A DNA stretch of 26,061 bases from a virus. Shown here in pieces: positions 17,155-25,153 of the stretch; position 1 is the stretch's first letter; every line of letters starts with the position of its first letter. The stretch covers positions 1 to 26,061 of the IMG/VR virus record IMGVR_UViG_3300025853_000558. One strand, 5' to 3'. Under the pieces are notes generated by a model. That model did no database searches. It was not told the DNA's origin and saw only the letters and a list, made by a program, of their open reading frames with translations. The position numbers and the translations under genes were made by a program.

Positions 17155-17549
17155 TGTTACAAGCACTAATTGGCCCAGCTACTGATTTAATTGGCAAGTT
17201 TGTCGAGGACAAAGACCAGAAGAATAAGCTGGCTCACGAAATAGCTACAATGGCTGAACGTCACGCGCAAGAACTAGCCAAGGGCCAGTTAGCTGTAAAT
17301 GCTGAGGAAGCCAAGTCGAGAAATGTTTTTGTGTCAGGCTGGCGACCCTTTGTGGGATGGTCATGTGGCTTGGCTTTGTTTGCACACTTCCTTATCTTCC
17401 CGACTGCTGATGTTGTGACTGCATACATGGGCATAGAGGCTGTAGCTTATCCATCTTTTGACATGGATAGCCTGATGACTGTATTATTAGGTATGCTTGG
17501 GCTAGGCGGGATGCGTAGCTTTGAAAAATCAAAGGGGCTGACAAAATGA
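17154..17549 (+). CDS. Holin, GTA-type 3TM family (PF11351-like)
   Basis: The product has 131 residues. It starts with an amphipathic helix and a helical region rich in Glu, Lys and Ala (about 13-57). The motif SGWRPFVGW (61-69) and a hydrophobic helix (about 68-88) then appear, with a further one at 106-121 (LMTVLLGMLGLGGM). The SGWRPFVGW motif and length are typical of the 3TM holin family first named from gene transfer agents of Alphaproteobacteria. It would open the inner membrane so the endolysin encoded at 17695 can reach the cell wall. Start and stop overlap the neighbours by 1 and 4 bp. Confidence 0.85.
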   Translation: MLQALIGPATDLIGKFVEDKDQKNKLAHEIATMAERHAQELAKGQLAVNAEEAKSRNVFVSGWRPFVGWSCGLALFAHFLIFPTADVVTAYMGIEAVAYPSFDMDSLMTVLLGMLGLGGMRSFEKSKGLTK

Positions 17550-18556: not shown

Positions 18557-18928
18557 TCAGAAATCGGGTTTGTAGTGCAAGTATTTAATTATATTTCGCG
18601 ACTTTCGTAACATCGCCCTAAGTTGAGTCGATACCTTGCGCTTTTCTAAGTGCATAATGCTGCTGTGGTCACGGGCTAGTATCTTACCCATCGTTGGGTA
18701 GCTAAACTTTGTGTGCCTGATACACAACAAAACAAATAGTTGCCGTGCATCAACGTATTCAGCCCTGCGATTCTGCCTGCGTAATGACTGTAATTCATAA
18801 CCACTTACAGAAAGCACAATCCTTTCAATTTGTTTTGCATCCAGTTCACCGCAATAAACATCCCAATACTTACCATTTGCCGGATTATATTTCACTCCAC
18901 ATTTCGGAAATTGAATTACGTTTCCCAT
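18557..18928 (-). CDS. Stand-alone DnaA domain IV-like DNA-binding protein
   Basis: The product has 123 residues. Residues 58-98 match the helix-turn-helix of bacterial DnaA domain IV: DARQLFVLLCIRHT is the first helix and ILARDHSSIMHLEKRK carries the D-H-S-S-I-x-H signature (Asp87 to His93), the DnaA-box contact motif. The AAA+ and other DnaA domains are missing and the preceding residues are unrelated, so it cannot act as a full initiator. It may bind DnaA-box-like sites to help or block replication start. AGGAGGG upstream supports the start at 18928. It overlaps the upstream gene by 44 bp and faces the late block stop to stop. Confidence 0.7.
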   Translation of the reverse strand: MGNVIQFPKCGVKYNPANGKYWDVYCGELDAKQIERIVLSVSGYELQSLRRQNRRAEYVDARQLFVLLCIRHTKFSYPTMGKILARDHSSIMHLEKRKVSTQLRAMLRKSRNIIKYLHYKPDF

Positions 18929-22205: not shown

Positions 22206-22415
22206 ATGTATTTACAGGATTACATTAGAGAACAAAGACTTAGCATGCGGCGGTTTGCTTGGAAAGCTGGCTTGTCTGTCTCTGCTGTGTCTCGCATACT
22301 ATCTAATCAGCGTTTCCCTACGCCCGAATCTATGCGGCGTATTTCTCTAGCAACTGATGGAAAGGTAAAAGCTAATGACTTCTACGAACAACACCACAGC
22401 CAGCGACTACGTTAA
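22206..22415 (+). CDS. Helix-turn-helix regulator, XRE/Cro-like
   Basis: The product has 69 residues. A full helix-turn-helix is seen: DYIREQRLSMRRFAWKAGLS followed by VSAVSRILSNQRFPTPESMRR. Ser24-Val-Ser-Ala-Val-Ser lies at the start of the recognition helix. The size fits a Cro- or Arc-like phage regulator. No ribosome site precedes the ATG at 22206, and the next ATG, 36 bp downstream, would cut the domain. The message may therefore be leaderless, as for lambda cI from PRM. It faces the recombination operon across a 67-bp control region. Confidence 0.75.
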   Translation: MYLQDYIREQRLSMRRFAWKAGLSVSAVSRILSNQRFPTPESMRRISLATDGKVKANDFYEQHHSQRLR

Positions 22416-22590
22416 CTGCCCTGATTGCGGCGGGGCTGGTGAATATGAGGTTGAGGTCGAGGTGATTGACCATGCCAATGGTGGCTTTATCAAAGGTATC
22501 ATGCAGACTTGTGAGTTCTGTGACGGTGACGGTGAGGTGCATGAAGAAGATGCAGCCGAGTTTCTCATCCATGTAGAGTTTGAACAGTGA
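22375..22590 (+). CDS. DnaJ-type zinc finger protein
   Basis: The product has 71 residues with two CxxCxGxG units, Cys15-x2-Cys18-Gly-Gly-Ala-Gly and Cys46-x2-Cys49-Asp-Gly-Asp-Gly. This is the cysteine-rich zinc site of DnaJ proteins in a minimal form. The acidic C-terminus has no known motif. No J domain is present. It might act as a protein-binding or folding accessory or just a zinc ribbon. It overlaps the regulator gene by 41 bp, with GGAAAGG upstream of its ATG. Confidence 0.7.
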   Translation: MTSTNNTTASDYVNCPDCGGAGEYEVEVEVIDHANGGFIKGIMQTCEFCDGDGEVHEEDAAEFLIHVEFEQ

Positions 22591-23099
22591 GGGATAGGCA
22601 GAAGGATGACTTCTATCCTACGCCTTTGATTGCTGTTGAAGGGTTGATGGATGTCGAAAGTTTTGACGGTGATGTGTGGGAACCAGCTTGCGGCAATGGT
22701 GCTATCTCTGAACCCTTCTCACATTATCATAACGTCATCAGCACTGACCTAAACGACTATGGGTACGGTCAATCTGGCGTGGATTTTATGATGGAGTCTA
22801 AGCTGCTTGCACCAAACATAGTAACAAACCCGCCATACAAACACGCCCAGAAATTTATTGAAAAAGCTATTTCTCTCAAAGCTGTTAAGCATTGCTGGCT
22901 TTTACGCCTTGCTTTTTTAGAAGGACGTTCTCGCCGTGTCGCTTTGTTTGACACCTATAAGCCAGCTAGGGTTTGGGTTTTCTCTCAACGCCTGACCATA
23001 TGGCGCGGTGATGAAAAGCCTAGCGGCAATGGTACGACTGCCTATGCTTGGTTTGTGTGGGATGGTGATGCAACAGAAACAAAGGTAGGTTGGATATGA
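22587..23099 (+). CDS. DNA adenine N6-methyltransferase
   Basis: The product has 170 residues. Motif I is WEPACGNGA (31-39), the SAM-binding loop, and motif IV is TNPPY (80-84), the adenine catalytic motif. KDDFYPTP near the start and STDLNDYGYG (52-61) fit the phage adenine methyltransferase group. A GTG start at 22587 overlaps the stop before it (GTGA). No matching endonuclease with a restriction role is recognised, so it is probably an orphan enzyme that protects phage DNA or marks it for regulation. The end overlaps the next ATG (ATGA). Confidence 0.85.
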   Translation: MRDRQKDDFYPTPLIAVEGLMDVESFDGDVWEPACGNGAISEPFSHYHNVISTDLNDYGYGQSGVDFMMESKLLAPNIVTNPPYKHAQKFIEKAISLKAVKHCWLLRLAFLEGRSRRVALFDTYKPARVWVFSQRLTIWRGDEKPSGNGTTAYAWFVWDGDATETKVGWI

Positions 23100-23491
23100 C
23101 CAATGGACGCAACAAGGGTGCTTCTTTTGAACGCGAGGTTTCTCTACTAATCCATGACCAGCTAGGCGTAAAGGTAAAGCGTGACCTGGAACAGTACCGG
23201 CTGGCTGGCAAGGGTGATTTGATTGGTCTTGATGGGTGGCTGATAGAGTGCAAGCGGTATGCAAACACAACAGCCAATAATATTCATAAGGATGCGTGGT
23301 GGTCACAAACGTGCGGGGCTGCATCTTTGACAGGCGAACTGCCGGTTCTCATTTACAAGTTTGACCGGCAACCGATTCGCTGCGTTGTGTATCTCTCAGC
23401 TATCAACGATGCTTTCTCTAATAAGGATGACATAGCCACGATTAGCTTTGAGACATGGTGTATGTTAGTGCGGGAATCATTGTGTGATTAG
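23096..23491 (+). CDS. Holliday junction resolvase-like PD-(D/E)XK nuclease
   Basis: The ATG at 23096 overlaps the methyltransferase stop (ATGA). The 131-residue product has NKGASFEREV with Glu12 and Glu14, GKGDLIG with Asp41, and WLIECKRY with Glu51-Cys-Lys53. This arrangement is the same as in archaeal-type Hjc and phage resolvase-like nucleases. It may cut branched DNA left by replication or recombination, or be a methyl-directed nuclease paired with its neighbour; the first is more likely by motif. The 3' end overlaps the convergent HNH gene by 50 bp. Confidence 0.75.
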   Translation: MTNGRNKGASFEREVSLLIHDQLGVKVKRDLEQYRLAGKGDLIGLDGWLIECKRYANTTANNIHKDAWWSQTCGAASLTGELPVLIYKFDRQPIRCVVYLSAINDAFSNKDDIATISFETWCMLVRESLCD

Positions 23492-24284
23492 CCCCATAAA
23501 ACTCCTCTGGCATTTTGTTACCTTTGGCTAGGTTTTCCTCTGCCGTAATGATTTGTAGATTCCAAGGTACGTTTAGGCCGCAGATTGTTTTACCCTTTAG
23601 TGGGTAGTAGTGGTCAACGTGGTATAAAACTCCATCCATATCACTTGACCTAGTTCTTTCTTCAAAGATGTAGGCCAGTTCCTCCATATCCACCCACCAA
23701 GGTGTCGCCCTGTTTAGTCCAGCCCTCCTCGCTACACTAAGCGCCTTGTGTCTCGCAGCGCCTTTTTTAGATTTTAGGTAGCGTTTTTTATTCTCCTTCG
23801 TCTTTTGTCTGTTTTGTTCCCTGTATTTGCGGTGATACCCAATAATTTTTTCTTGATTATCTTCAGCCCATTTCTTCTGCGTTTGCAAAATCTTTTCTTT
23901 GTTGTCTGGGTTTCGCCTGTATTCGTGACAATGAGATAGTCGTTTCTCACGTTGAGAACTGGTTTCTTTGCTTGTATAGTCTCGCGCGTACTCTCTCTCG
24001 CAATCAATACACATTGTATTTCTTGTTCTGCGTCCAGATGTGTGGCCTTTCGGGCAAGGCTTCCCGTCAAAGTACACATCTAAACCACTGTCTCTAGCAA
24101 CTTGCAGCGCACTAATTTCGCGTGGCTTCCTGACGTAAGATTTATTTTGCCTTTCTCTGTGGCAGGCCATGCACCTTTTGTTTGGAACGGTTCGTTCTGA
24201 TAGATGCCCATGCTTGCAGGGCTTGCCTGTAAAGTACCGTTTCAGCCCTTTCTCTTTTGCTTCTTGTCGTGTGATTATCTGCAT
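23442..24284 (-). CDS. Free-standing HNH endonuclease with two N-terminal zinc-finger repeats
   Basis: The product has 280 residues. Two units with the same spacing, Cys23-x3-His27-x10-Cys38-x2-Cys41 and Cys77-x3-His81-x10-Cys92-x2-Cys95, start 54 residues apart and likely bind zinc and DNA. A Lys/Arg-rich repetitive middle (about 120-190) has YRRNPDNKEKI and YREQNRQKTKENKKRY units. The HNH core is at 221-257: Y-H222-V-D224-H225, PWN242LQ and N251. AAAGGAGGG precedes the ATG. It overlaps the neighbour nuclease gene tail to tail by 50 bp. It resembles homing-type or stand-alone phage HNH enzymes. No intron is evident. Confidence 0.85.
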   Translation of the reverse strand: MQIITRQEAKEKGLKRYFTGKPCKHGHLSERTVPNKRCMACHRERQNKSYVRKPREISALQVARDSGLDVYFDGKPCPKGHTSGRRTRNTMCIDCEREYARDYTSKETSSQREKRLSHCHEYRRNPDNKEKILQTQKKWAEDNQEKIIGYHRKYREQNRQKTKENKKRYLKSKKGAARHKALSVARRAGLNRATPWWVDMEELAYIFEERTRSSDMDGVLYHVDHYYPLKGKTICGLNVPWNLQIITAEENLAKGNKMPEEFYGANHTMIPALTYTMSQS

Positions 24285-24321: not shown

Positions 24322-24349
24322 TTGACAGGTTTTTGCTTCTTTGTATAAT
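24322..24349 (+). promoter_or_regulatory. Perfect sigma70 promoter, rightward
   Basis: TTGACA at 24322-24327 and TATAAT at 24344-24349 are both exact consensus hexamers with a 16-bp spacer. Transcription would start near 24356, just inside the CCGC-N4-GCGG palindrome. It points away from the HNH gene and into the repeat block, where no coding gene follows on the plus strand. Confidence 0.75.
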
Positions 24350-24362
24350 CCGCATTAGCGGT

Positions 24363-24467
24363 GTTAAGCATAACAAGTTAAGCATTACTTGTTGAGCCAA
24401 CCCAAGTACCTATTGCAAAAAGAAAAGGGTGCCAAACTTGTTAAGCATAACTTGTTAAGCATAGCAC
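24363..24467. repeat. 14-bp-period repeats with GTTAAGCAT core (iteron-like)
   Basis: GTTAAGCAT occurs exactly at 24363-24371, 24377-24385, 24440-24448 and 24454-24462. A degenerate copy, GTTGAGCCA, lies at 24391-24399. Within each of the two groups the copies start exactly 14 bp apart. The second group lies inside the loop of the terminator hairpin. Such arrays can bind regulators or replication initiators. Confidence 0.75.
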
Positions 24468-24485
24468 CCCAGCCCCTTTTTATTT
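24427..24485. terminator. Probable bidirectional rho-independent terminator
   Basis: GGGTGC (24427-24432) pairs with GCACCC (24464-24469) around a 31-nt loop; alternatively AAAAGGG (24423-24429) pairs with CCCTTTT (24474-24480). T-rich sequence follows on the plus strand (CTTTTTATTTATTTTT), and TTTTCTTTTT follows on the minus strand. It would end both the rightward RNA and the leftward operon from 24777. The long loop lowers certainty. Confidence 0.55.
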
Positions 24486-24777
24486 ATTTTTCCTCGTTTC
24501 TCTCCATCCAAAGCGCGTCCAATGCTTTGATAGACTTGCCAAGCATGGTTGGCATTCTTGTGCTGGGTTTGCCACCGCATACAAAGTCACCAAAGTCACT
24601 GCTTGCTGATACTGGCCCTCTACAAGTCCAGCCATATCTGTCACTTCTTATTATAAACTTCCATTCGCGCTTACCCTTATCATTGTCTTTGCCTTTCTCT
24701 CTCATGGCGTCCTTCATTGGGTAATCGTAAATGATTATGTCTGCATCTCTGATGCAAGAGTCTATGTTCATTCTCAT
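24484..24777 (-). CDS. Hypothetical protein, last gene of the upstream leftward operon
   Basis: The product has 97 residues. It begins MRMNIDSCIRDADIIIYDYP, with a hydrophobic strand-like IIIYDYP, then a Lys/Asp-rich stretch (MREKGKDNDKGKREWKF), then VCGGKPSTRMP and a C-terminal helix. AGAGGAG upstream supports 24777, with a second ATG two codons later. No family recognised. The stop runs into the terminator block. Confidence 0.55.
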   Translation of the reverse strand: MRMNIDSCIRDADIIIYDYPMKDAMREKGKDNDKGKREWKFIIRSDRYGWTCRGPVSASSDFGDFVCGGKPSTRMPTMLGKSIKALDALWMERNEEK

Positions 24778-24779
24778 TT

Positions 24780-24953
24780 CTATTTCTCCTCTAGTTCGAT
24801 TGTTTCCAAGGCCATTTCCAAGACCTTGGGTATGCTTGTCTCGCCTAGTTCATAGGCTTGTATTGTGCGGCGTGATAACCCTAGCTTTTCAGCAAATGCT
24901 TGCTGCGTGTAGCCAAGAAACTCGCGCCTTTCTCTAAGTTCTGATGGTATCAT
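24780..24953 (-). CDS. Small helix-turn-helix regulator, XRE family
   Basis: The start is chosen at 24953, where ATG overlaps the preceding stop (ATGA); upstream codons to 25004 lie inside the previous gene. The 57-residue product begins MIPSELRERREFLGYTQQAF. The sequence LGYTQQAFAEKLGLSRRTIQAYELGET is a textbook XRE helix-turn-helix, with a short C-terminal Leu/Glu helix. It is a second regulator besides the one at 22206. The 14-bp repeats about 0.3 kb away are candidate binding sites, which is only an inference. Confidence 0.8.
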   Translation of the reverse strand: MIPSELRERREFLGYTQQAFAEKLGLSRRTIQAYELGETSIPKVLEMALETIELEEK

Positions 24954-25153
24954 TTCTCTATCCAGCTTTTTTCTGATGAGTCTGTGATTGCAGCAATGCC
25001 CCATGAATCGAGGCTATCGCCGTGTATGTTTTGCAAGGCAAGGATTTGCTGCCTTGCCTCGTCTCTTGTTTCACAAAGCTGCCAGTCGTCTTTGTAGGTT
25101 GTCTGGTCTGCTATGTTGGTCGTGAATTTGATTCGATGAAATACTAGCTGCAT
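24950..25153 (-). CDS. Hypothetical protein of 67 residues
   Basis: AGAGGAG precedes the ATG at 25153; the frame is open upstream to 25195 within the preceding gene. The product begins MQLVFHRIKFTTN, has YKDDWQLCETRDEARQQILALQ in the middle, and ends with a short WIEK. It has a mixed alpha/beta look with no known motif. It sits between two accessory genes and overlaps the regulator start by 4 bp. Confidence 0.55.
   Translation of the reverse strand: MQLVFHRIKFTTNIADQTTYKDDWQLCETRDEARQQILALQNIHGDSLDSWGIAAITDSSEKSWIEK

Follow-up and report, generated by a model that had tools for sequence, protein, structure and literature searches.

The window analysed here, the whole of a 26-kb IMG/VR fragment (26,061 nucleotides), comes from a podovirus; its tail tube protein shares 49% identity with its counterpart in Pelagibacter phage HTVC010P, and podoviruses of the HTVC010P type are abundant in marine phage communities. 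The element described here lies at a convergent junction, at which an HTH-methyltransferase-nuclease operon ends facing a small HTH gene. The upstream operon, on the same strand as the element, encodes an HTH protein, c6, a methyltransferase and c0; c6 is a 71-aa DnaJ-type zinc-finger protein (window 22375-22590) that weakly matches a family of Q-like antiterminators (E 0.0025). The downstream convergent operon carries c1 and c2 at or near its end, and the late operon (terminase and structural genes), which starts approximately 2-3 kb downstream of the element on the same strand, is the next plus-strand block. The features of the locus, with positions in the window, are:

23090-23491, plus strand: c0, a PDDEXK/RusA-like nuclease; where the HNH insert is missing, the gene runs right up to the promoter
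23442-24284, minus strand: HNH/endonuclease VII-like gene, an insert separating c0 from the promoter
24322-24349, plus strand: sigma70-type promoter TTGACA-16-TATAAT (TTGACA 24322-24327, TATAAT 24344-24349), match 12/12
24350-24361, no strand assigned: palindrome CCGC-ATTA-GCGG, CCGCATTAGCGG, centred on the predicted start point
24357-24480, plus strand: predicted transcript of about 125 nt, which could fold into one long hairpin with imperfect pairing (-36 kcal/mol, z -3.95)
24363-24402, plus strand: 5' array of three 12-bp near-palindromic units with a 14-bp period (GTTAAGCATAAC, GTTAAGCATTAC, GTTGAGCCAACC)
24403-24426, plus strand: centre with an A-rich tract, which is the A-tract of the bidirectional terminator
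24427-24469, no strand assigned: 3' array within a GGGTGC...GCACCC stem, with units GTTAAGCATAAC at 24440 and GTTAAGCATAGC at 24454
24484-24777, minus strand: 97-aa convergent gene, variable and missing in many relatives
24780-24953, minus strand: c1, a small HTH_3 protein (57 aa), encoded at or near the end of the convergent operon and seen only alongside the element
24950-25153, minus strand: c2, a 67-aa protein, found only alongside the element

Where no insert is present, TTGACA overlaps the stop codon of c0, and the place of the HNH gene is held in relatives by a Dcm methylase, a GIY-YIG gene or nothing. The gap separating c0 from the promoter is a hotspot for insertions (window 23442-24284; also L007, L269 and L272), the inserts of which, namely HNH, Dcm-like methylase and GIY-YIG genes and a 67-aa PHROG_1081-like fragment, read away from the promoter; the Dcm-like and GIY-YIG inserts were identified by reading their translations. 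The c2 protein is predicted to adopt a beta-beta-alpha-beta-alpha fold, in a confident model (pLDDT 92.6), and has no relatives in Pfam or PDB. A second conserved promoter-like site, TTGACA-18-TATTAT, lies near the lysis/endolysin genes (window 17458-17487; G002:3598). G002 (IMGVR_UViG_3300017728_000052; 34,110 bp) is probably a whole, circularly read genome, because its ends overlap by 115 bp. Integrase and DnaB-type helicase were searched for in nine records each, and neither was found.

As the original prediction had it, the TTGACA and TATAAT hexamers are exact and stand 16 bp apart, and a CCGC-N4-GCGG palindrome occupies the start point. Promoter-like sites as a class are at shuffle level (14 found versus 14.0 expected), but the 12/12 match belongs to this site alone, and no other 12/12 sigma70 promoter occurs in the whole window or in six near-complete relatives. 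The start palindrome recurs in relatives with changed letters (CCGG..., CGCT-TCC-AGCG, CAGC-TTC-GCTG, TTTCAC-ATGA-GTGAAA and TGAG-TTC-CTCA), staying palindromic despite these changes and those of loop length, at about -6 to +6. As it straddles the predicted start point, it cannot fold within a transcript from this promoter.

The repeats, the AACAAGT/ACTTGTT inverted repeat (24372-24393) and the terminator-like hairpin were likewise all confirmed in place. Copies of GTTAAGCAT lie at 24363, 24377, 24440 and 24454, and near-matches to it number 9 in the window versus 3.2 expected, 9 being reached by 1 of 100 shuffles. The element's inverted repeat is the strongest in each near-complete genome (the window and six relatives), tied in the window. 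After the GGGTGC...GCACCC stem comes the T-tract, CAGCCCCTTTTTATTTATTT; with the A-tract on one side and the T-tract on the other, the 3' hairpin is bidirectional terminator-like, and this order of A-tract, stem and T-tract stands at a convergent junction and can be read on both strands. RNA folding, which had been proposed as a check, gave the stable hairpin listed above. ATG is absent from 24356-24485 and there is no conserved ORF in the element, which bears out the claim that the predicted transcript is ATG-free and has no coding frame; each of the two overlapping plus-strand ORFs (63 and 111 aa) either runs antisense to an annotated frame or has its start within the HNH gene. With its own promoter and terminator and no ORF, the element has by its sequence the make-up of a phage trans-acting sRNA.

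The same element is present in approximately 45 IMG/VR contigs, in the same genomic place. A repeat-only scan of IMG/VR, in which the promoter was not used, returned 22 contigs, and TTGACA-16-TATAAT is found in 21/21 of those reaching far enough; among loci found through c0 (at least 88% identity), 20/21 with enough sequence have the exact promoter and the remaining one has TAAAAT. Extra patterns raised the number of full-sequence members to 41, in three letter types (A, which is window-like, B and C), plus two partial ones. The constancy of the hexamers in this 41-member set comes partly from selection, so that a fair test is given by the repeat-only and c0-based searches. The promoter spacer is variable among the 41 members (10/16 columns), and the 3' array is longer in types B and C by 14 bases, which is one repeat period. 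Relatives that keep the flanking genes and lack the promoter, the outcome that the original prediction named as telling against it, were looked for and not found. Among cultured phages the element is in no record; Roseobacter phages CRP-821, CRP-811 and CRP-406 and phage C72C1 have c0-like genes in other arrangements. Bacterial genomes scanned with the promoter-palindrome pattern gave two matches, both without the repeats, and a central-motif scan, which used 7 A (the elements mostly have 6), returned mostly unrelated loci.

Diverged c0 relatives share the plan in other letters: L211 and, at approximately 60% identity, L219, L222 and the L261/L272 and L262/L265/L270 groups. They have promoter-like hexamers, an array, an AT-rich centre (75-96% AT in several of them, and 67% in the window), an inverted array and a pyrimidine-rich sequence, with the start palindrome in most, and their folding z-scores are -2.8 to -7.7. 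The case is weakest for L258 and its relatives: in the G012/L258 type the element is weaker, and initiator, c1 and c2 are all absent. Counts of long-range pairs in MFE folds did not discriminate and an inverted-repeat test was used in their place; this Watson-Crick-only scan finds strong arms at the elements and none in other c0 loci or in shuffles. In L020 (4500-4620) the 5' arm is almost the exact reverse complement of the 3' arm (fold z -8.8), a near-perfect duplex that is probably a template-switch product and so is not counted as support. The feature is no product of chance: it is genuine and old, and it extends beyond the window.

The slot after c0 is held by an HTH_36 O-like initiator (33 loci) or by the element, never by both. 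Among whole contigs, HTH_36 is present in 11/11 of the initiator class (10/11 over the curated cut-off) versus 0/11 of the element class, and a cognate O-like initiator, sought as HTH_36 over the cut-off, is in none of the 11 element-class contigs; G001 has a weak HTH_36 match in an 83-aa frame, below the cut-off. Both c1 and c2 occur in 0/11 initiator-class contigs versus 10/11 of the element class. The initiator of C72C1 is annotated as 'replication initiation protein'. Palindromic iterons lie within the O-like initiator genes (GGTGTCACAGAGACACC four times in L228; also L241 and C72C1), and the lambda O gene likewise holds iterons internally (PMC7466680). Their positions in relatives are L228:5287-5408, L241:3109-3168 and L278:6062-6109. 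Since the initiator gene holds the iterons, phages without the gene are also without that origin. On the c0 tree, with the C72C1 row left out of account, the exclusivity requires only 1-2 changes; it may thus be a single inherited event, and counts as one association in history instead of as independent repeats. Most simply, the element together with c1 and c2 would have taken over both the slot and the task of initiator and origin. A stand-alone DnaA C-terminal HTH domain protein (PF08299; window 18557-18928) is found in initiator-bearing and element-bearing phages; with the protein in both classes and DnaA boxes scattered, we rejected the boxes and this protein as partner.

With real reserve, we are inclined to propose that the element is a protein-free replication module, composed of palindromic, iteron-like arrays flanking an A/T-rich centre, a self-promoted transcript that would read through them and a bidirectional terminator. 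The proposal builds on what was observed: the anatomy, the conservation in one slot, the fixed plan with changed letters and the exclusivity with the O-like initiator gene. A transcribed origin is more likely than a plain sRNA because the module occupies the slot of its relatives' lambda-O-like gene and origin repeats; of the options in the original prediction (a regulatory RNA, a decoy, or an RNA primer at an origin), the last fits best, on the exclusivity with the O-like initiator. A DNA-binding protein, for which c1 is the best candidate, would fill the palindromic units; transcription from the consensus promoter would open the AT-rich centre or leave a primer; and the terminator would keep transcription out of the converging genes. 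In lambda, pR transcription running through ori stimulates initiation, with modulation by the converging pO promoter (PMC3985674). That the module is an origin we infer, beyond its conservation and its exclusivity with the initiator. The strong inverted repeats, found only at the element among c0 loci and the strongest of each genome, argue for an origin, as do the tandem dyad repeats beside an AT-rich stretch, a stretch that is weak in the window's own type; strand-symmetric Watson-Crick pairing also suits a DNA-level role. Against an origin, the c1 recognition helices do not track the unit letters within the B type, and the G012/L258 type pairs its weaker element with the absence of initiator, c1 and c2 alike. 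GC skew follows gene direction and is uninformative on the origin. An AT-rich conserved intergenic stretch, AAAAAGTTTACACATTGGAAAAAG...TTTATATAATATAAG, occupies the gap between the minus operon and terS (L063:3740-3830, L065:11580-11660); lying upstream of the late genes (L063:3780, L065:11601), it could be a rival origin or a divergent promoter region.

Possible, though on balance unlikely, is a stand-alone structured sRNA: an abundant early hairpin of approximately 125 nt that would act in trans, for example as a decoy for a host RNA-binding protein, nuclease or defence sensor, and in which structure, not sequence, would matter. The perfect promoter, the terminator and the lack of an ORF all suit such an RNA, as do a sequence free to change and a long hairpin with z of -3 to -9 across members unrelated in sequence, including the near-perfect duplex of L020. 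However, selection on RNA structure would give more G.U than A.C pairs and a better fold of the plus strand, and neither is seen: among 99 arm mismatches G.U numbers 10 versus 16 A.C, and in most members the minus strand folds as stably as the plus or more so, which leaves the sRNA reading without specific support. In many cases the arms directly copy near-palindromic units, the A-type arms retaining the same A.A mismatches, and a half-swap test gave no clear coevolution of the arms. Rfam gave no match at gathering or relaxed thresholds, and among phage mRNA start regions none rose above shuffled sRNA controls. Nor can the start palindrome lie in the transcript, and the exclusivity with the initiator is left unexplained. 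Thus the strong promoter, the lack of a coding frame and the conservation stood from the predicted regulatory RNA, whereas signals in Rfam, phage mRNA targets and strand-specific pairing did not appear. The strand symmetry would fit DNA sites, a cruciform or a both-strand terminator, with which a transcript is still compatible. We also rejected a terminator/antiterminator switch, as near-equal energies hold for some A and B members and fail for L211, L219 and L222; an integron attC-like element, the integrase not being found and the core-site pattern not fitting; and a CRISPR-like array, the repeat/spacer layout of which does not fit.

We consider it improbable that the element is a promoter with an operator array, to which a small HTH protein (c1 or c4) would bind in tandem and so control a transcript silencing the convergent operon in the manner of OOP or sar RNA. 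The adjacent c1 gene, found only with the element, and 12-bp palindromic units with a 14-bp period beside a promoter would be expected of such an array, but the c1 and c4 recognition helices do not track the palindromes, the units are almost confined to the element and are not at other promoters, and the terminator precedes the convergent genes. The same point separates the element from lambda OOP and P22 sar: as with those two RNAs, its product would be short, start at a dedicated phage promoter, run towards a regulatory gene and end at a terminator, but the predicted RNA stops before the convergent genes and has no complementarity to coding sequence past the terminator, and the letters are not conserved. 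There is still less to recommend the view that the element is mainly a bidirectional terminator insulating converging operons, in which the promoter would be a by-product or serve as a roadblock to transcription; a convergent junction wherever the element is seen, A-tract, hairpin and T-tract on both strands and strand-symmetric pairing all agree with it, but the consensus promoter, the 5' array, the start palindrome and the link to c1, c2 and initiator loss are left unexplained. Very unlikely indeed is a late-gene leader akin to lambda pR'-6S-tR', in which antitermination would release an early-stopped transcript into the late operon. As with pR' 6S RNA, there is a strong constitutive promoter and an early terminator on the late-gene strand; this is moreover the sole consensus promoter, with the terminase/structural operon as the next plus-strand block and c6, with its weak Q-like match (E 0.0025), as a neighbour. 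Unlike in lambda, approximately 2.2 kb of opposing genes separate the element from the late operon, which has its own conserved upstream region, and the promoter spacer holds no conserved Q-site-like sequence.

Overall, the observation is sound; the small-RNA reading, while possible, lacks specific support, and an origin fits best. The element resembles the lambda origin in its repeated dyad sites, its AT-rich stretch and a promoter firing through or beside them, and in its relatives that slot is filled by an O-like gene containing iterons. In contrast to lambda, there is no initiator gene, the repeats form two inverted arrays outside genes, the element has its own consensus promoter and terminator, and the candidate binder is a 57-aa HTH protein. 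We therefore describe the element as working like a lambda-type iteron origin without classing it as one, the cognate O-like initiator being absent. Primer transcripts of the ColE1 RNA II type support initiator-free replication from a strong promoter. This is one way in which the element could work, and any likeness would be one of mechanism, rather than of sequence, length or an RNA I counterpart.

We know of no account of how replication starts in those HTVC010P-type phages for which our searches found neither an O-like initiator nor a DnaB-type helicase nor an integrase. In its full form, which we regard as doubtful, the proposal is that three parts now stand in for an initiator gene and its internal origin: a non-coding inverted-array element with its own promoter, a 57-aa HTH protein and another small protein that belongs to no known family, the transcript playing its part at the origin; were this true, the rapid change of letters under a fixed plan would reflect incompatibility between phages. 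If instead the RNA reading is true, a widespread structured phage RNA is missing from Rfam. The exchange of an initiator gene for a conserved non-coding module brings the question of how replication starts in these phages within reach of a test that needs a single DNA fragment and a single small protein.
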